From positions 1 to 38,331 of IMG/VR virus record IMGVR_UViG_3300010331_000007: a stretch of DNA of 38,331 nt, one strand, 5' to 3'. This document shows positions 124 through 25,395 of this stretch, piece after piece. The notes beneath the pieces were generated by a model. That model did not search any database. It had not been told where the DNA came from and worked only from the letters and a program-made list of their open reading frames with translations. The position numbers were made by a program, and so were the translations under genes. Each line of letters starts with the position of its first letter. Position 1 is the stretch's first letter. Source of the DNA: a virus.

Positions 124-3100
124 AGCCGATCGCTTCATCTTGGCGAACAAGGACCTCACCGACGCGCAGATCGTCACCATCCATTCGTTAGCGGCGGCGA
201 AAGACGCGCAGAAAAAATCGGACGATGCGGCGACCAAGGCCACCCAGGACAGTGGCAGCGCGACCAAAAAGGCCGCCACCGAAGAAGAGGCGCGCACCAA
301 AGCACTCACCGACCTTAAGGCGCAGGCCGACATTGCCATCACCTCGGCGACGGGCCTGGCGGCGGCTTATCTGGCGGGCACGGACAAAAGCCGCGAATTC
401 ACCTTGCAGCAGAAGGTTGAAGAGGCATTGTTAAAAACGGGGGCCGGTGCCCGCGACAAGGTCACAGCGGCTATCGCCAGTCAACAGAATGCCCAGGACA
501 AACTGGCAGTCGCTAAATCTGCGTATGACCTGGGCAAAGAAACCGACGACCTCATTGCTCAAGCCAAAGCCACGCTGATGGGGGCTGATGCGCTCGCGGC
601 GTACAACGCGCAAAAGGCGCTGACGATTGCCCTGGCCGGCAAGAATGTCGAGGTGGGCAGTAAAGAATATGAGCAACTGCAGGCCGCGACCAAAGCCCAG
701 CAGGCCGCAGTAAAGATGGCCCACGAGGCCTCTACGTCTACCGGGATCATGGATCGCCTCTACCCCGCTGCTAAGTTGCTGAAAGATTACACCGACGACC
801 AGAACGCCCTTAACGCGGCAATGGCGCTTTATCCTGCAAACGCGGGGGCCTATGAGTCGGCACTGGTCAAGCTGAGCAGCGAATATGAAGCCAACCGCAA
901 CAAGGCCACGATCTGGGGGCAGATGACCGAAGGGGCCATCGATCGCATCGACGAAGCCTTCGCAAACATGTGGCAGTCCGTTCTAAACAAGTCTGGCAAT
1001 TTCATGGAGACGCTCAAGAACAGCTTCAAGCAGTTCCTGGGCGAGATGCTGCACATGGCGATTACCAAGCCGATCATTGTGCGGATCGCTTCCAGTTTAG
1101 GTATTGGCGGCCTTGCTGGGAGCACCGGCAGCGACAGTGGCGGGGGCATCCTCGCAAGCTTTACCGGTAACGGCATCATGTCGTATCTGAATACCGCTAA
1201 AACCGTCATATCCACCATCGGCAGCAATTTCGGTAAAGCTCTTTCCTCTGGCTGGAGCAGCGGTGAAGGCATAACGGGCGGCCTTCAAAATGCATTTTCA
1301 AACGGCGCTGATTACGTAAAAGACGCAATCACTGGAGCGTTCACCACCGGCTCAGCGGCTGCAGCGTCTACGGCCGCACTCACTTCTGAAAGCATCACGA
1401 CCGCCCTGAGCCAAAGCTCGACGGTGTATGCCTCGCAGTTCAGCGCGTCTGCCGGCGCCGTTTCTTACGACGCAGCGGCCAGTGCTTCAGCGTCTGCGGC
1501 AAGCAGTGGTCTGGCTACATTAGGCAGCGTGCTGGGCTACATCCAGGGTGTCTATACGATCTTTCAGAGTTTCCAGGCCTACGGCTTGAAGGGTGCGGCG
1601 GTAACTGGCGGCCTGGCAGCTGCCGGTGCCTACGTCGGCTCGTTTTTCGGCCCGATCGGCACTGCTATCGGGTTTGCAGTCGGCGCTGTGGCCGGTGCGT
1701 TTGGCGCCGGGAAATTGTTCGGCAGCGGTGAAAAATATGCGGACATGAGCACCTCAGCCCAAGGGACATACTCCAGCGGTAAGTATGTCGGAACTGGCCC
1801 AGTGCCCGGCTGGCAAACCAATGCGCCCAAATATGGGGCTGCTGCCGACGCGCAAATGGACTCAACGGTCAACCAGTTCGCCACCACCCTGGGCATGCTT
1901 TACAAATCGTTGGGCAACGGTGCTGATGTCTACGCCTATGACTTGATGCAGGTCCGCAAGACCTCGGGCAAGTACTCCACCACGTTCGGCGCGACCCTGG
2001 ACAATGGCACCGGGGTGGGTCTGGATTTTCACCAGCAATTCAATGCGGCCGATGCCGCCGCCGCGTTGGCCACCAACTATGACGACATCATGGGGACCTT
2101 CCTCGCGAAGGCGATTGTCAGTTCGGTGTCTCTGCCGGAATATTTCAAGTCGCAGTTCACCGACTTTGCCAACAGTTGGGACACCACGGCCGATGAAGTG
2201 ATCAAGGCCATCGAGGGCGTATTTACGCGGTTCAACGGCGTCAATGATGCGCTGAACCTGATCAACGTCAACAACCTGAAACTGGACAATACCGGGTTGA
2301 TTGCCGCTGACTCGATTCTAAATATGGTCGGGGCGCTGGCGGATCTGGATGTCACTACGGCGTCAGCCAAGGACAAGGTGGATGCCCTCAACACGGCGGT
2401 GGGCACCTACTACCAAGCGTTTTTTAGCGCTGACGAGCAGTTTTCCGACCTGAGCAAAAGCTTGCAAAACGCGTTCGGTGGCTTCGGGCTTGAGCTTCCC
2501 GATACGCGGTCTGCATACCGGGACATGGTGGAAGACATTGACGTCACCACGGGCGCCGGCCAGGCGATGTTCGCCACCATGATGGGGCTGGCCAGCAACG
2601 CCGATGCCTACTACACCGAAATTGACAAGCGCGCCCAGGCCGCCGTGGGTGCAGCCAGTGCCGCAGCAGATGCCGCTAGCGAGGCAGGTCGGGCGGCCAC
2701 TGATGCATGGTCAAACTACTACGGTTTGTTCACGTCTGACACGCAAAAGGCCGCCGATACGCTGGTGTTCGTCAATAAGCAATTTGCGGCGTTGGGCGTA
2801 GTACTGCCATCCACCCGTGATGGGTTTGCAGCCATGGTCGGTTCCATCGACAGCACGACCCAGAAAGGAAAGTCCCTGTTCGATTCGCTGTTGGGATTGG
2901 CAACTAACGCAGACGCGGCCTTCAACATCATTGAGGCAAACGCCAAGGCCGCGACCGAGGCTTCTGCCGCCGCTGCTCAGGCGGTAAACGATGCACTGAA
3001 CCTCGGTGTTACCCACAGCTTTTCGGCCGTACAGCGCGCGATCACTGCCCAGCAGAAAGCTGCGACAGAAGCCTATAACGCAACTACCGCATCGCTCAAC

Positions 3101-5088: not shown

Positions 5089-7463
5089 TGGACGCACCAA
5101 TCATTCCCATACTGCCGGACGCGCCACAACGGTCTCAGGCCTCGGCAACGTACTCTGCGACCGCTGATGCCTGGGCGGCATCTATTGGGCCGTGGACCGT
5201 AGCGCTGAACCAGTTTGGCGACTACATGACCGCGTCTGCGCCGGGCATAGCGGCGGCAGTCACGGCCGGTGCGGTAGCGGTTGCAGCGGCTACAGCGGCA
5301 GGTATCTCGGCCAGCAATGCACAGATTTACGCGGCAGCGGCGGCGACTTCGGCGGGGGCAAGCGCGACGTTAACGGGTGGTCTGCCTTTCCAGAATTTGC
5401 AACTGGCCAAGGACGGGCAAAGCATTATCTTTGCCGAGCCTGGGCAAACCGGCGATATCCTGTTTTGCACGCGCAACCCTGGCCCGTTGTATCTCCCGGC
5501 CACGGGCGGCGTGCGCTCGCAATCGGCTTACCCTACGTTGTTCGGCGCGCTGGGTATTCAGGGCGGGATTGCTGGACATGCCTGGACCAGCACGCCCGGC
5601 CCAGCGGTCGCAGGTGCGGCGACCATATCCGCTTCAGCGGCGGGCACCCTCGTCCGGGGCGTTGGCTCTACGCTGTATCGCTCGACTGATAACGGTGCGA
5701 CATGGGTGCTGGTCTCGACGATCACCACGTATGTGTTTACTGCGATCGCCAATGATGGCGCGGGCGTGTGGGTTGCGCTGACCAATAACCTAGTGAACAA
5801 CGGCAATACCTATCGCTCGAGTGACGATGGCTTGACCTGGGCCTACGTGCTCAACAACCTCCCGCAAACCGGCGGCTGGGGTGGCCTGGTAACCGATGGC
5901 AACGGCGTCTGGATTATGACGTTTGCCAGTGCTGCTACCTCGGTCGGTCGTTCGCTGGACAACGGCTTGACCTGGGCACTGGTGACCAGTTCCGCCAGCG
6001 CGATTCACCGAGACATCGCTTGTGATGGCCAGGGCGTCTGGGTGGTGCTGGCCGGCTTGTTCTGGCTACGCTCTAACGACAGCGGCGCCACCTGGACGTC
6101 GGTTGGTGGCGGCGGGGCCAACATTCCCTATGCCGTCGCCACGGATGGCCGGGGCACCTGGCTGATTTCCGGCGCGGCGGCCAGCACTAACACCTGGCGC
6201 AGTGTCGACAATGGCCTGACCTGGATCCTGTATGCACCCTCGGTCAGCGTCACGGTGGCCGATATCCTTTACAGCCAGGGCTTTTTCATCCTGGCCACCG
6301 ATGGTTCGCCGAACCTGTACACGGTGGCCGCCGGTGATGACACCCCGCTTTTTGCGGCCAAGGCCACGGGCGTACTGGCCAATGCTTCCCGGCTGGCCAT
6401 CGGCAAAAATAACGCGATCTATTGCATTCCGACCACGGTGACGGCGTCGCAAGCCACGCTGAGAGCCGACCCGTATTACAGCTATGACACTGGGTCGCAG
6501 TTCAAACTGCCGGACGTCTCGGCGGCGATGAACATCAACACCAACCTCAAGCCCTGGATCAAGGCCGGTAACGCCTATCGCCTTACCGCCGCGTCGTGGC
6601 TTAAAGATTCTGCCCCGACGTTGCCAGTCAGGGCGATCTGTGCCGCTCGCGACGGCGTGATTATCGCCACGCAAACAGGCGGCACAGCAGGGGGGATTAT
6701 TCGCTCGGCGGATTACGGCGCGTCGTGGACGGCCATCGCCACGACCAACACTGTCGCCAACAGCAGCAACAACGTGATCGCCACCGATGGCAATGGTACC
6801 TGGCTGGTGGGTAACACTGGCTCGATGTCACGCAGTACCGACAACGGACTGACCTGGACAGCGGTGACGACAGGCATCACTGGCATCAACTATGTGGCCT
6901 ACGCCAATGGGGTGTTCATGGTCAGTGGCTCGACATCCGGTATCCCTCGGCGCTCATTGGACGGTGGGGCAACGTGGACGGCTGCGACGGGCACTGCTTA
7001 CGGGTTTATTGCAACCGATGGAACTGGCGTTTGGCTGACCTATGTCGCCGCCCAGGTCTATCGCTCGACCGACAACGGTTTGACCTGGGCGACGGTGGTT
7101 TCCGGCGCGACGGCTACGGCGGTCAGTGTGTCGATGCATGCCAATGGCGTGTGTTTGATCACCGCCACCACGTCAGGTGCAACCCGACGCTCAACCGACC
7201 GGGGCGCGACCTGGTCAGCAGTGGCTAGTGGCTTTGTCGGCACGGCCGCTGATATGAAACTCAACAGCCAAGGGGTGGCTGTGATCGTCGGGACCTCGAG
7301 TGCCATGCGCGTGAGCCTGGACTATGGCGTGACCTGGGCGCTGGTGCCCACCGCTTCGCAAGTGAGTGGTGCGGTGTATTGCGTTGGCGGTGGCGACATC
7401 GGGCAATGGTTGGCGGGTTATCTGTCCGGTGTCATGGCGTCTCAATCCATCGTAATTTCTTAA
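5088..7463 (+). CDS. Tail fibre / receptor-binding protein with 11 sialidase-type Asp-box repeats
   Basis: A 791-residue protein. I chose the ATG at 5088 (MDAPIIPILPDAP) over 5058 because GTAGGAG lies 9 bases upstream and the start overlaps the previous stop. An N-terminal region (to about residue 110) ends in an Ala-rich stretch that suits trimeric attachment. A short domain (GDILFCTRNPGPLYLP) follows. Then come 11 Asp-box motifs of the form RS-x-D-x-G-x-T-W, at about residues 196, 241, 286, 327, 369, 537, 581, 620, 657, 700 and 740. They are spaced about 43 residues apart in two blocks of five and six. Asp boxes are the hairpins of sialidase-like beta-propellers, so each block may form a propeller or a repeat stack that binds host surface sugar. 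I see no sialidase catalytic signature (such as an Arg triad) that I can place with confidence, so binding rather than cleavage is the safer reading. Confidence 0.85.
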   Translation: MDAPIIPILPDAPQRSQASATYSATADAWAASIGPWTVALNQFGDYMTASAPGIAAAVTAGAVAVAAATAAGISASNAQIYAAAAATSAGASATLTGGLPFQNLQLAKDGQSIIFAEPGQTGDILFCTRNPGPLYLPATGGVRSQSAYPTLFGALGIQGGIAGHAWTSTPGPAVAGAATISASAAGTLVRGVGSTLYRSTDNGATWVLVSTITTYVFTAIANDGAGVWVALTNNLVNNGNTYRSSDDGLTWAYVLNNLPQTGGWGGLVTDGNGVWIMTFASAATSVGRSLDNGLTWALVTSSASAIHRDIACDGQGVWVVLAGLFWLRSNDSGATWTSVGGGGANIPYAVATDGRGTWLISGAAASTNTWRSVDNGLTWILYAPSVSVTVADILYSQGFFILATDGSPNLYTVAAGDDTPLFAAKATGVLANASRLAIGKNNAIYCIPTTVTASQATLRADPYYSYDTGSQFKLPDVSAAMNINTNLKPWIKAGNAYRLTAASWLKDSAPTLPVRAICAARDGVIIATQTGGTAGGIIRSADYGASWTAIATTNTVANSSNNVIATDGNGTWLVGNTGSMSRSTDNGLTWTAVTTGITGINYVAYANGVFMVSGSTSGIPRRSLDGGATWTAATGTAYGFIATDGTGVWLTYVAAQVYRSTDNGLTWATVVSGATATAVSVSMHANGVCLITATTSGATRRSTDRGATWSAVASGFVGTAADMKLNSQGVAVIVGTSSAMRVSLDYGVTWALVPTASQVSGAVYCVGGGDIGQWLAGYLSGVMASQSIVIS

Positions 7464-10445: not shown

Positions 10446-10674
10446 GGGGCAAAAATGGGGCAAACGGTACGCCAATCAATGCCCTTTAATGCCTTTTGAA
10501 CGTTTTTTATGAGTTGTCAAATTAGCCCTACAGCCCTTGTTATTTGGGGCTGTAGGGCTTTTTGGCGTTAATACCCCAACACAATCGGGGTGTGGGAGGT
10601 TAAATCTGAAATAGCTTTATTCATCAATTGGTTAGGGGCGTGAGTGTCAAAGTTAGGGGCAAAACCGGGGCAAA
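10446..10674. other. Putative attP region with paired integrase arm-site repeats
   Basis: The octamer GGGGCAAA occurs four times, in two pairs: 10446 and 10457, then 10656 and 10667. Within each pair the spacing is exactly 11 bp, one helical turn, and the pairs are about 200 bp apart. This is the layout expected for P and P' arm sites flanking a crossover core, in the only long non-coding region near the integrase gene. The core itself cannot be identified without the host attB. The 523-bp gap 10390-10912 otherwise holds a terminator and an AT-rich stretch with no gene that I accept. Confidence 0.55.
10524..10563 (+). terminator. Strong terminator hairpin inside the att region
   Basis: A perfect 13-bp stem pairs 10524-10536 with 10547-10559 (AGCCCTACAGCCC and its complement), with a 10-nt loop and a T-run to 10563. 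It would terminate transcription arriving from the methyltransferase. It could also be part of a bacterial gene terminator captured at the attachment site. Confidence 0.8.
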
Positions 10675-16265: not shown

Positions 16266-16774
16266 GCTGCTTCACCTGGTATGACAGCGGGTATAGCTGC
16301 CAATGCTGCTGGGCTGTCTGCACGGATAGCGCCAAGGATGCGATGCGCGATGCCGTTCAACTGTTCCATCTGGGTTGCTGCTCTGGCACGCCAAGGTTCT
16401 GTACCTTTCACGGGTAACCAAGTTTTATGGGCCAGGCTGAGCGTGGCGGCGGTATCCACCAACACCTGAAGGTCAGCTTTGTTCAGCGTGCTAGCTGCGG
16501 AAGCATCCAGTTGCCTCTGGAGGTCTTGGATAAAGTGGTTTTTGAATTCGATGGTCTCCAGAAATCCCTTTCGCTCACGTGTGCGGCGAGATGCCAGCGT
16601 GGCCAAGTCTGCATTCAGCGCGTTCATGCGGACGCTGCTATCTGCGACGCCGGCAGATTTTCCGATCGCGTATGCCTTGCGCAACTCACGCTTGATCGCT
16701 TTGGTGATGAAGTGGATAAGCAGGGTGCCACCCAGGATGATGCCAATCAGAATTACAAAGTGTTGTGTTTGCAT
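16262..16774 (-). CDS. Membrane-anchored protein of unknown function
   Basis: A 170-residue protein started at 16774, with GAGGA 8 bases upstream. A longer frame to 17005 runs into the previous gene and has no good start. Residues 5-24 (HFVILIGIILGGTLLIHFI) form one membrane segment, followed by a basic, helical, Gln-rich cytoplasmic or periplasmic domain. It lacks the size and position of an i-spanin, and being an early-operon gene argues against lysis. I do not recognise a family. Confidence 0.7.
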   Translation of the reverse strand: MQTQHFVILIGIILGGTLLIHFITKAIKRELRKAYAIGKSAGVADSSVRMNALNADLATLASRRTRERKGFLETIEFKNHFIQDLQRQLDASAASTLNKADLQVLVDTAATLSLAHKTWLPVKGTEPWRARAATQMEQLNGIAHRILGAIRADSPAALAAIPAVIPGEAA

Positions 16775-16793
16775 GTGCTGTGTCCTCAGGAGA

Positions 16794-16832
16794 GCCCGCC
16801 GCCGGATCGGTGGTGAGAGGACGGCGGCGGGC
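16794..16832 (-). other. GC-rich hairpin with CCTCTCACCAC loop (nut-like element, copy in left operon)
   Basis: An 11-bp perfect stem pairs 16794-16804 with 16822-16832. Its 17-nt loop, read on the minus strand, contains CCTCTCACCAC followed by CGATC. It lies in the gap between the DUF2303 gene and the membrane protein gene. The same loop motif occurs after cro (20900-20910) and in the PL leader (19781-19792). Confidence 0.65.
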
Positions 16833-17664: not shown

Positions 17665-17697
17665 TGGATGTGCTCCAGTTTTTGGGGTGAGATTTCG

Positions 17698-18042
17698 TTA
17701 CTGCGAGACGTGTCGCAGCCTTTCCATTGCTTCATCTTCGGCGACCGGGCGTAGCGCCAGATCCTGTTGGCGAGGGTCGCGGCGTGTGAGGTTGCCTTCA
17801 GGCGTAAGGAAGAACAGTGATGTGCCGCGAGAAAGAACCGGCTCTTTCACTTTGACGTCAGCCTTTACGTTCATCTGGCCGCGCCCGTCCGGCTTGTACG
17901 AGAGCTTGATTACGATGTCGCCGCCCTTGCCAGCCAACCGAATAGCGTCAATCAGGCGGTGTTGCGATTCGGAGAGTTCATCGAGCAGGCCACCGGCTTC
18001 AATGTCGCGCAGGGTGTCGATAAATGGTCGTGCTTTGCTCAT
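17698..18042 (-). CDS. Conserved phage early protein, unknown function
   Basis: A 114-residue protein. Its middle (GGDIVIKLSYKPDGRGQMNVKADV) looks like a beta sheet, with charged helical flanks and no motif that I recognise. It sits immediately upstream of DUF2303 in the operon, a pairing that recurs in related prophages as far as I recall. The ribosome binding site AAAAAGG is weak. Confidence 0.65.
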   Translation of the reverse strand: MSKARPFIDTLRDIEAGGLLDELSESQHRLIDAIRLAGKGGDIVIKLSYKPDGRGQMNVKADVKVKEPVLSRGTSLFFLTPEGNLTRRDPRQQDLALRPVAEDEAMERLRHVSQ

Positions 18043-18091
18043 GTGCTGTGCCTTTTTGGTTGGTTGCCCCTGCGGGCCGGGGCCGCCTGTA

Positions 18092-18993: not shown

Positions 18994-19566
18994 TCAGGCC
19001 ACTGCGCGCAAGGTGCGTGCGCGTAGAGCTTGGTAGAGCTCATCAATTTGCCCGATCAGTTCCGCCATGCCGCCATCGTTGCGCAATACCAGATCGTCAT
19101 CGCCGATAGAAACACCAGCTTCACTGATGTGAGGACTCACTTCTGCGGCGTCAGGGCGGATCACGTGGATAATTTTTCCACCACGTTTGCGAATGAAGTC
19201 AGCTTCGTTCTCGAAGCGGACATCGCTGATGACGAACCCTGGTGCGCTGTCGAAAACGGCGCTCAGGCAATCGAGATTCTGTTCGGCCAGGTCGATCCAA
19301 AGGTTGGCGCTGATCATGTGGCGTCCCCACTCAGTGCCCAGCAGCTGCATCAGTTGACGTGGTGAGCGCCCCAGCCATGCAATCGGTTGCTCTTTGGCGT
19401 CGCCTTCGAGATCTTCCGGGCTGAGGTTGAAGATCGCCATTATTCCCTCGCGTAGCGGGTCGGCGAATGCATAGCACTCGAAACCATGCTCGGTGGCTAG
19501 GTGTTGGGCGACGGTTGTTTTGCCTGAACGGGCTAGGCCGGTGAGGCCAATGAGTAGTTGGCTCAT
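18994..19566 (-). CDS. Deoxynucleoside monophosphate kinase
   Basis: A 190-residue P-loop kinase that would phosphorylate dNMPs to dNDPs using ATP. LTGLARSGKTTVAQHLA (residues 8-24) is the Walker A region. ADPLREGIMAIF and LLGTEWGRHMISANLWIDLA match the nucleotide-binding and lid segments of T4 gene 1-type dNMP kinases. FVISDVRFENEADFI is the Walker B and adenine region. It probably raises dNTP supply, including modified precursors. Its start overlaps the upstream stop. Confidence 0.85.
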   Translation of the reverse strand: MSQLLIGLTGLARSGKTTVAQHLATEHGFECYAFADPLREGIMAIFNLSPEDLEGDAKEQPIAWLGRSPRQLMQLLGTEWGRHMISANLWIDLAEQNLDCLSAVFDSAPGFVISDVRFENEADFIRKRGGKIIHVIRPDAAEVSPHISEAGVSIGDDDLVLRNDGGMAELIGQIDELYQALRARTLRAVA

Positions 19567-19769
19567 GCTGCGTCACCACCCCATGGACTGACGTGATCGG
19601 CAGCCATTGGAGCTGGTGCGGGCGGTACGGCCAGAGCGGCGCGGCCCTTGGGCGTGATGATGACTAGCAAGCCGGTGCGGCGCTGGACGGCCTCAATGGA
19701 GCTGAGGTTGGAAGCTGCTGCCGGATGTAGGTACACCGGGCAGCGAGAGTTGTGCTGTGTCGTTTGCAT
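19563..19769 (-). CDS. First gene of the leftward operon, small unknown protein
   Basis: A 68-residue protein at the position of lambda N in the PL operon. It is Ala/Pro-rich at the C-terminus, with RRTGLLVIITPKGRAAL in the middle. It is not obviously Arg-rich like lambda N. I do not recognise it. Its leader carries the CCTCTCACCAC motif 12 bases upstream of the ATG and no good Shine-Dalgarno sequence. Confidence 0.6.
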   Translation of the reverse strand: MQTTQHNSRCPVYLHPAAASNLSSIEAVQRRTGLLVIITPKGRAALAVPPAPAPMAADHVSPWGGDAA

Positions 19770-19780
19770 GGCTCGTACTC

Positions 19781-19792
19781 TGTGGTGAGAGG
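19781..19792 (-). promoter_or_regulatory. CCTCTCACCAC element in the PL leader (nut-like)
   Basis: On the minus strand the 12-mer CCTCTCACCACA lies between PL and the first ATG. It is flanked by a short CGTA/TACG pairing that leaves a 17-nt loop. It matches the loops of the hairpins at 16794-16832 and 20887-20929. Confidence 0.5.
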
Positions 19793-19804
19793 TTTACGGA
19801 ACAG

Positions 19805-19847
19805 ACAATACAAATACGTATTGGATTAGTCAATACGTATGCGTATC
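19805..19847 (-). promoter_or_regulatory. PL promoter with two repressor operators
   Basis: On the minus strand, -35 TTGACT (19828-19833) and -10 TATTGT (19805-19810) are 17 bp apart. Two 16-bp imperfect palindromes of the form AATACG-N4-CGTATT overlap them at 19807-19822 and 19832-19847. They match the perfect operator at 20633-20648, so the CI-like repressor or Cro should shut off the leftward operon here. Confidence 0.75.
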
Positions 19848-20615: not shown

Positions 20616-20658
20616 ATTGTATTGCCTTCATCAATACGCTTGCGTATTATCCTGTCAA
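20616..20658. promoter_or_regulatory. Divergent PR/PRM promoter region with perfect 16-bp operator
   Basis: Rightward, -35 TTGCCT (20622-20627) and -10 TATTAT (20645-20650) are 17 bp apart. The perfect palindrome AATACGCTTGCGTATT (20633-20648) fills the spacer and touches the -10, so bound repressor blocks PR. Leftward, a TACAAT -10 (20616-20621) or a TTGACA -35 (20653-20658) could serve the repressor gene. A weaker half-site ATACG lies near 20607-20612. Confidence 0.75.
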
Positions 20659-20682
20659 TGCGAAGGCGCATCGGTGAATGCA

Positions 20683-20880
20683 ATGACTATTCAGCAAATG
20701 TTGGCGGACCTCCTCAAGCGCGGCTTCTCGCAGCGGGCAATTGCCGATCAGGTGGGAACCACGCAGCCCACCATTTATCGCGCCACTAAGGGTGCAGATA
20801 TTCGATACGAAACCGGCAAAGCAATTGAGCGCATGTTCTACCAAGAGAAAGACGCAGCCGAGCGAAAGTCGGCAGCTTAA
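20683..20880 (+). CDS. cro: Cro-like regulator
   Basis: A 65-residue helix-turn-helix protein (DLLKRGFSQRAIADQVGTTQ, then PTIYRATKG). It is the first gene right of PR and is divergent from the repressor. The ATG at 20683 is preferred; an in-frame GTG at 20674 with AAGG upstream is an alternative. A longer frame to 20617 would start inside the promoter. It is expected to bind the AATACG operators and promote lytic development. Confidence 0.8.
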   Translation: MTIQQMLADLLKRGFSQRAIADQVGTTQPTIYRATKGADIRYETGKAIERMFYQEKDAAERKSAA

Positions 20881-20886
20881 AAAGGT

Positions 20887-20929
20887 GCCGGAACTGGGGC
20901 CTCTCACCACAAGATTCCCCCAGTCCGGC
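20887..20929 (+). other. Hairpin with CCTCTCACCAC loop directly after cro (nutR-like element)
   Basis: A stem GCCGGAACTGGGG (20887-20899) pairs with CCCCAGTCCGGC (20918-20929) with one bulged A. The 18-nt loop begins CCTCTCACCAC and contains AAGATTC. It begins 6 bases after the cro stop and has no T-run, so it is not a simple terminator. Its position equals that of nutR/tR1 in lambda. Confidence 0.65.
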
Positions 20930-21019
20930 TTATGACGACACAGCACATGCATCGGTCATGGTCATAGAGTAGGGAATGCCTTGCTTTATTGCCACACCGT
21001 AACAGGGGTATTTACGGTT

Positions 21020-21508
21020 ATGAGTCGTACGGATCTATTGCCTGACGCTGGTCAGGTCCTTTCACTGCGTCAGGCGCTGTATCGCGCAGGGCGTGACTAC
21101 AAGGGCGGTATCACTGCCCTTGCCTATGACATGGTGCTTGATAACGACACCGTCCAGAAGAAACTCAAGCTTGATGAGGAGCGTCGTTGGTTGACTCCCG
21201 ATGAGCTTGAAGAAGTGATTCGGTTGACCGAAAGCCCGCTGCTGCTTGACGCCTTGATGCGTCCGGCGGGCGCCGTTTGGTACAAGCCTGAGCCAGTAGC
21301 AGCAACTAAAGATGCACTGAAGGCCGTCGGCGAGTTACTCGCGGAAACGGGTGAGTTTGTGTCCAGCATGCACAGCGGCGCAGCGGACGAGATCTGGGAG
21401 TTGCACGAGGTTGCGCTGCTTGATAAGCACGGCGTAGACGTTATTCGTGCGGTGCTTGGCATCATGGCAGGTGCACGCCAAGCGATGGGGGGTCATGACA
21501 ATGGCTGA
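21020..21508 (+). CDS. CII-like phage regulatory protein
   Basis: A 162-residue protein started at 21020 (MSRTDLLPDAG). LRQALYRAGRDYKGGITALA, then MVLDNDTVQKKLKLD and LTPDELEEVIRLTESPLLLDALM, match the phage regulatory protein CII/YmfL family of transcription factors, distinct from lambda CII. The C-terminal half is helical, perhaps for oligomerisation. It is in the PR operon after cro. It probably tunes the lysis-lysogeny decision. Confidence 0.75.
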   Translation: MSRTDLLPDAGQVLSLRQALYRAGRDYKGGITALAYDMVLDNDTVQKKLKLDEERRWLTPDELEEVIRLTESPLLLDALMRPAGAVWYKPEPVAATKDALKAVGELLAETGEFVSSMHSGAADEIWELHEVALLDKHGVDVIRAVLGIMAGARQAMGGHDNG

Positions 21509-25371: not shown

Positions 25372-25395
25372 AATCCCGCTTCGGCGGGATTTTTT
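25372..25395 (+). terminator. Strong terminator between late control region and holin (tR'-like)
   Basis: A perfect 8-bp stem AATCCCGC/GCGGGATT (25372-25379 and 25384-25391) with loop TTCG and a T-run to 25395. Its place between the putative late promoter and the holin is that of lambda tR', which Q-modified polymerase reads through. Confidence 0.85.

Follow-up and report, generated by a model that had tools for sequence, protein, structure and literature searches.

The stretch of viral DNA analysed here (hereafter the window) comprises 38,331 nt and corresponds to positions 1-38,331 of IMG/VR record IMGVR_UViG_3300010331_000007. Directly after a cro-like gene it carries a hairpin whose loop sequence recurs in the left early operon, and the question raised by this locus is what such repeated hairpins are for. 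In phage lambda, nutL and nutR lie in both early operons, just after PL and after cro, and boxB is a hairpin whose loop has a phage-specific identity common to all the sites of that phage. The original prediction was that the copies in the window occupy the nutR and nutL positions and may form an antitermination or RNA-binding signal unlike lambda boxA and boxB. For the lambda-like Pseudomonas phage YA3, the lack of an N homologue has been reported, and its early antitermination was left open (PMC7326022).

The repeated 11-mer and its hairpins in the window

An exact search of the window found three copies of CCTCTCACCAC, in agreement with the original prediction, namely one on the plus strand after cro and two on the minus strand, in the PL leader and further along the left operon (Table 1, loops of classes A, B and C); all three lie on the sense strand of the early operons, as had been proposed. 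The same three copies were returned when one mismatch was allowed (mean in shuffled sequence, 0.57), and the complement of the 11-mer was sought elsewhere in the window and not found. Folding reproduced the two strong hairpins as described, with energies of -23.9 kcal/mol (z -2.9) for class A and -27.0 kcal/mol (z -5.7) for class C. The PL-leader copy had been placed outside any strong hairpin, which is true of the window, where it has just a degenerate 4-bp stem and an unremarkable minimum-free-energy fold (z 0.72), but not of the relatives, where it lies in a hairpin loop. In all three copies, ACACAGCACA begins 31-39 nt past the start of the loop core; the GAT-C thought to be common after the motif is not constant across sites. 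A fourth, degenerate copy (AATCTCACCCCA) is located 5' of the DUF2303 gene (class D).

Table 1. Coordinates of the hairpins, boxes, genes and putative promoters of the early region in the window
Feature	Position	Strand	Basis or remark
Class A hairpin after cro, loop with CCUCUCACCAC at 20900-20910	20887-20929	+	homologous position in ~75 unique relatives; covariation
Second, weaker hairpin AUGAC-GA[CACAGCACAUGCA]UC-G-GUCAU with CACAGCAC box	20932-20959	+	read from sequences
cro-like ORF, end 6 nt 5' of class A hairpin	20617-20880	+	
CII-like (Phage_CP76) gene, 3' of class A element	20981-21508	+	
Putative PR promoter TTGCCT-17-TATTAT	20622-20650	+	consensus match only
Class B hairpin at PL transcript 5' end, 4 bp CGUA/UACG, loop with CCUCUCACCAC at 19782-19792	19774-19798	-	
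Putative PL promoter TTGACT-17-TATTGT, predicted start at class B 5' arm	19805-19833	-	consensus match only
First left-operon gene, 68 aa, phrog_13491	19563-19769	-	
Class C hairpin in left operon, 11 bp, loop with CCUCUCACCAC at 16810-16820	16794-16832	-	
Class D copy, degenerate UCUCACC, stemless, before DUF2303 gene	17686-17692	-	
ACACAGCACA box after class A hairpin	20938-20947	+	
ACACAGCACA box after class B, within codons of first gene	19751-19760	-	
ACACAGCACA box after class C, adjoining ATG	16774-16783	-	

Site classes and their genetic context

The sites of the window and its relatives, which lie on the sense strand in the relatives as well, fall into four classes: A, after cro; B, at the 5' end of the PL transcript; C, 5' of a left-operon start codon; and D, before the DUF2303 gene. 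The start-codon sites inside the left operon (C and D), the tandem arrangement of class A and the phage-specific fifth loop base described below were points that the original prediction had missed.

Class A consists of 1-5 hairpins between cro and the cII-like gene, often two or three in tandem, with unlike stems and alike loops; in the window, the hairpin starts about 230 nt 3' of the putative PR. The weaker hairpin that follows it has ACGAC/GUCGU arms in relatives, a compensatory C-G to U-A change (one pair, read from the sequences without statistics). The cII-like gene itself has its ribosome-binding site in the loop of another conserved hairpin, of the form ACCGUAA[CAGGGGUAU]UUACGGU in the window (~20996-21019), with counterparts in the related loci L063 (~6065-6095) and L337 (~10502-10526).

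Class B is, in relatives, a 7-10 bp UCGUAC/GUACGA hairpin beginning near +1 of the PL transcript; in 73 of 116 relatives, 12-13 nt separate the loop core from a -10-like hexamer. Almost all relatives have the ATG of the first gene 21-24 nt 3' of the loop core, and the Shine-Dalgarno (SD) region is inside the 3' arm. In locus L110 (plus strand, 4736), CCTCTCACCA occupies the loop of a terminator-like hairpin that has a T run behind it and precedes the class B site by about 120 nt.

Class C is generally a GC-rich hairpin of 10-15 bp located 5' of a left-operon start codon, and in the window it is followed by an SD, ACACAGCACA and then an ATG. P. aeruginosa phages also have a perfect 16-bp hairpin, ttccccatagggctct[CCACG]agagccctatggggaa, in their left operon (L063, ~2590-2630, minus strand). 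Class D reads CCUCUCACCAMA in relatives, with little or no stem, and lies ~25-35 nt 5' of the DUF2303 ATG, with an SD directly after. In L063, L065 and L100, the h114 gene is shortened to ~43 aa and a DUF2303 match is lacking, apparently by a deletion relative to the window-type phages. As CACAGCAC is also found 5' of genes that have no hairpin, it might be a start-site feature in its own right. In this phage group, CACAGCACATG likewise recurs as a start-codon context, with or without a hairpin (window 16774-16783 and 18042-18051, minus strand).

Evidence for an RNA structure

The hairpins are supported as an RNA element by a conserved loop, by stem divergence with compensating changes and by the placement of the sites on the sense strand. 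The loop core is CUCUNAC(C), in a C/U-rich loop of 8-20 nt that is mostly unpaired in the predicted fold, and it is kept among relatives with diverged stems. When arms were exchanged between sites, own arms paired far better than swapped ones for classes A, B and C, and class D gave no stem; for class A, 95% of arms formed a strong stem with their own partner, versus 45% when swapped within the class and 14% across classes. This swap test also serves as the control for the pairing percentages of the pair table, which are inflated by the choice of the best register for each sequence. Compensatory changes were likewise seen as covariation when 18 class A sequences were aligned, with 19 double-change cells versus 6.9 in shuffled alignments (score 0.253 versus 0.140; 0 of 500 shuffles), the double changes falling in 6 of 12 pairs.

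Distribution among Pseudomonas phages

The element is present in more than 100 Pseudomonas phage contigs, and in a large group of these phages it marks the left and the right early operon alike. A two-part pattern (CTCTCACCAC, 10-40 nt, ACACAGCACA) matched 46 viral contigs; with one extra leading C it was found in 10 Pseudomonas species in genome_contigs and gave two chance-like matches in unrelated organisms. A looser form matched 41 of 398 Pseudomonas genomes, and its reversed control gave one match. Three host genomes searched whole contained 15 copies of the 11-mer, 14 of them in one early-region cluster per genome and the remaining one on a second contig of genome G002. Over 192 loci, CTCTCAC occurs 598 times, versus 53-169 for control permutations (CCTCTCA was dropped from these since it overlaps the motif), and 410 times with a strong stem, versus 1-17; this excess is partly expected, as many loci were selected by the motif, but the copies beyond the selecting copy of each locus were not. 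Phages D3, F116 and F10 have no strong hairpins of this type, and a literature search for the motif returned unrelated papers only.

The phage-specific loop base

The fifth base of the loop core is uniform within a phage and is C, G, U or A between phages. A single allele characterises 195 of the 199 loci where strong sites number two or more (shuffled mean 116, sd 3.8), with some contigs counted as more than one locus, and the four exceptional sites resemble chance hairpins. The non-C loci, which amount to 21 distinct hairpin sets, have 101 sites of their own allele versus one of another. The further alleles came from phages fetched by their first-gene protein, with the loop disregarded; they comprise CUCUACA in LPPA56 and its relatives, CUCUGAC, CUCUUAC, and shorter loops (CUCACC, CUUACC, CCUACC) in a P. 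stutzeri-like outgroup. The hairpin variants of the element include CUCUCACC, CUCUGACC and CUCUUACC. The rule does not hold throughout this outgroup, for in prophage L340 the right-operon loop is CCUCACC and the left-operon one CCUACC. At locus L301, the PL leader carries CUCUACC and the site after cro CUCUGAAC.

The clearest case is that of the sister prophages in genomes G575 (G allele) and G582 (U allele), which are ~90% identical over 15 kb and differ in this base at 6 of 6 sites; their alignment contains no complementary site elsewhere that co-varies with the loop base. Such concerted change implies, by analogy with lambda N and nut, a matching trans-acting factor that would read all the loops of a phage, since neutral loops would each drift on their own, and conversion between copies ought to have made the stems alike as well, which they are not. 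A single host, P. aeruginosa, has phages with the C allele and phages with the A allele (Lodos and LPPA56, respectively), which makes a phage-encoded reader likelier than one set by the host. These natural alleles, including the six-site sister pair, provide a ready specificity assay for the factor and the mechanism.

Candidates for the loop-reading factor

No N-like gene was recognised. The first left-operon gene was considered on account of its conservation and its place just downstream of class B; however, its product is not arginine-rich, does not track the allele and differs between the G and U sisters just in its C-terminal tail, and it was rejected as the specificity factor (its AlphaFold model, with pLDDT 64 and pTM 0.39, was unusable). 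PrtN and h94 were rejected, as identical proteins co-occur with different alleles, and similar Cro proteins are also found with different alleles. DUF2303/h115 initially correlated with the A allele, but L063, L332 and L335 keep the elements without a DUF2303 match, and a related protein occurs in L127 together with a C allele. A bulk-similarity screen of the G575 ORFs revealed no early gene tracking the allele, and a screen for G-tracking genes over the fetched prophage regions returned mainly late structural genes.

Comparison with known systems

The PL-leader and post-cro sites do match the positions of nutL and nutR, and also those of HK022 putL and putR. As in lambda, both early promoters (consensus matches only, in the present case) give transcripts that contain sites, and the loop identity is uniform in a phage and different among phages. 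In contrast to lambda, where boxB has a GNRA-like pentaloop, the loop here has 8-20 nt with CUCUNACC, and there are 3-8 sites per phage, internal and tandem ones included. For boxA (GCUCUUWA-like), GCTCTT was found between -40 and +67 in no class A or D site, in 1 of 154 class B and in 8 of 109 class C sites, and matches across the window were at chance level. Thus, as regards the original prediction, an RNA element unlike boxA and boxB stands, and its antitermination role is retained as a tentative reading.

HK022 put RNAs depend on the zinc-binding domain of beta' and on no phage factor, which recalls the present case, where no N-like gene was found. Their positions are also similar: in HK022, putL begins at +2/+3 of PL and putR ~270 nt after PR (PMC9378689), as compared with about +1 and +230 here. 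However, put is a two-stem RNA of ~70 nt with its own conserved sequence and without CUCUNACC; a search of the HK022 put regions for CUCUCACC found none, nor was there any sequence match to put, and the concerted loop base argues for a phage-specific factor.

In Pseudomonas, control at the level of terminator read-through is described in work on AlpA and Q-type antitermination (PMC9371919). AlpA reads a promoter-internal DNA element, whereas the element here is an RNA hairpin. The P. aeruginosa sRNA PhrS pairs with leaders and represses Rho termination (PMC6700203); its creg site would resemble the present element as a Pseudomonas RNA element affecting Rho-dependent termination (PMC6700203), but PhrS is a host sRNA acting in trans. 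Rfam gave no match at the gathering score and, at E<=5, just two sub-threshold matches elsewhere in the region. The best reading is that the element would work like nut without being a member of nut.

Possible function and alternative explanations

We propose tentatively, at slightly less than an even chance, that the hairpins are phage-type-specific, nut-like RNA recognition sites for early antitermination in lambda-like Pseudomonas phages; antitermination is favoured because the sites are found in both early operons, near both early promoters. A stem of variable sequence presents the conserved CUCUNAC(C) loop, and the factor that would read it in trans is most likely a small RNA-binding protein encoded by the phage. 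Bound near the starts of the PL and PR transcripts, this factor might, less surely, modify the elongating RNA polymerase, so that neither terminators nor Rho would stop transcription of the long early operons, in the manner of N acting at nut; the copies inside the operon and those in tandem would strengthen the modification or restore it. That such a multi-site hairpin regulon, common to many Pseudomonas prophages, with allele-matched CUCUNACC loops and a phage factor that is probably an antiterminator without boxA or an N-like protein, constitutes a previously undescribed class is a suggestion made with a little more reserve.

Translational control is the main rival, since classes B, C and D lie close to start codons. 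A phage RNA-binding protein acting on these loops would set the translation or stability of early mRNAs, and the 5'-terminal hairpin would shield the PL transcript. The short distances to the ATG in classes B and D, the SD region held in the class B 3' arm or directly following class D, and the place of class C 5' of a start codon would all suit such a post-transcriptional regulon, which is nevertheless rather unlikely: class A, the most elaborated class with up to five tandem hairpins, is not at a conserved CDS start, and the positions fit both early promoters and not a set of related genes. A put-like hairpin that binds the host RNA polymerase directly, with no phage protein, would agree with the sites at the PL 5' end and at about +230 of PR and with the failure to find an N gene, but it is improbable, as the host polymerase would not explain a base that is constant inside each phage yet varies among phages sharing a host species, and as the sequences do not match put.

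It is more doubtful still that the loop is the target of an antisense RNA encoded by phage or host. Its C/U-rich, predicted mostly unpaired and phage-specific sequence would suit pairing, for which the leader-pairing sRNA PhrS is a precedent in the repression of Rho termination (PMC6700203); against this, the complement of the 11-mer is absent elsewhere in the window, the three host genomes hold nothing outside the prophage cluster except the single copy on the second G002 contig, and the sister comparison gave no co-varying complementary site, although pairing over fewer bases is conceivable. Sites acting as DNA (operators, segregation or packaging sites) might account for several copies per phage, but the arm-swap and covariation results largely refute them, for the stems vary in sequence while complementarity is kept and the orientation follows transcription, so that this explanation is the least credible of all.

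As for the terminators that a nut-like antitermination system would have to overcome, few strong intrinsic ones were found in the early operons themselves, which counts against this reading, as Rho or pausing would have to be what read-through chiefly overcomes. In its favour, the phage is laid out like lambda, and a strong terminator separates the post-primase gene from the holin gene. This intrinsic terminator, in a lambda tR'-like arrangement, is located at 25372-25391 in the window and at 17484-17509 in L342, and the post-primase gene that precedes it belongs to phrog_4300, with a weak match to the PA0613 family.
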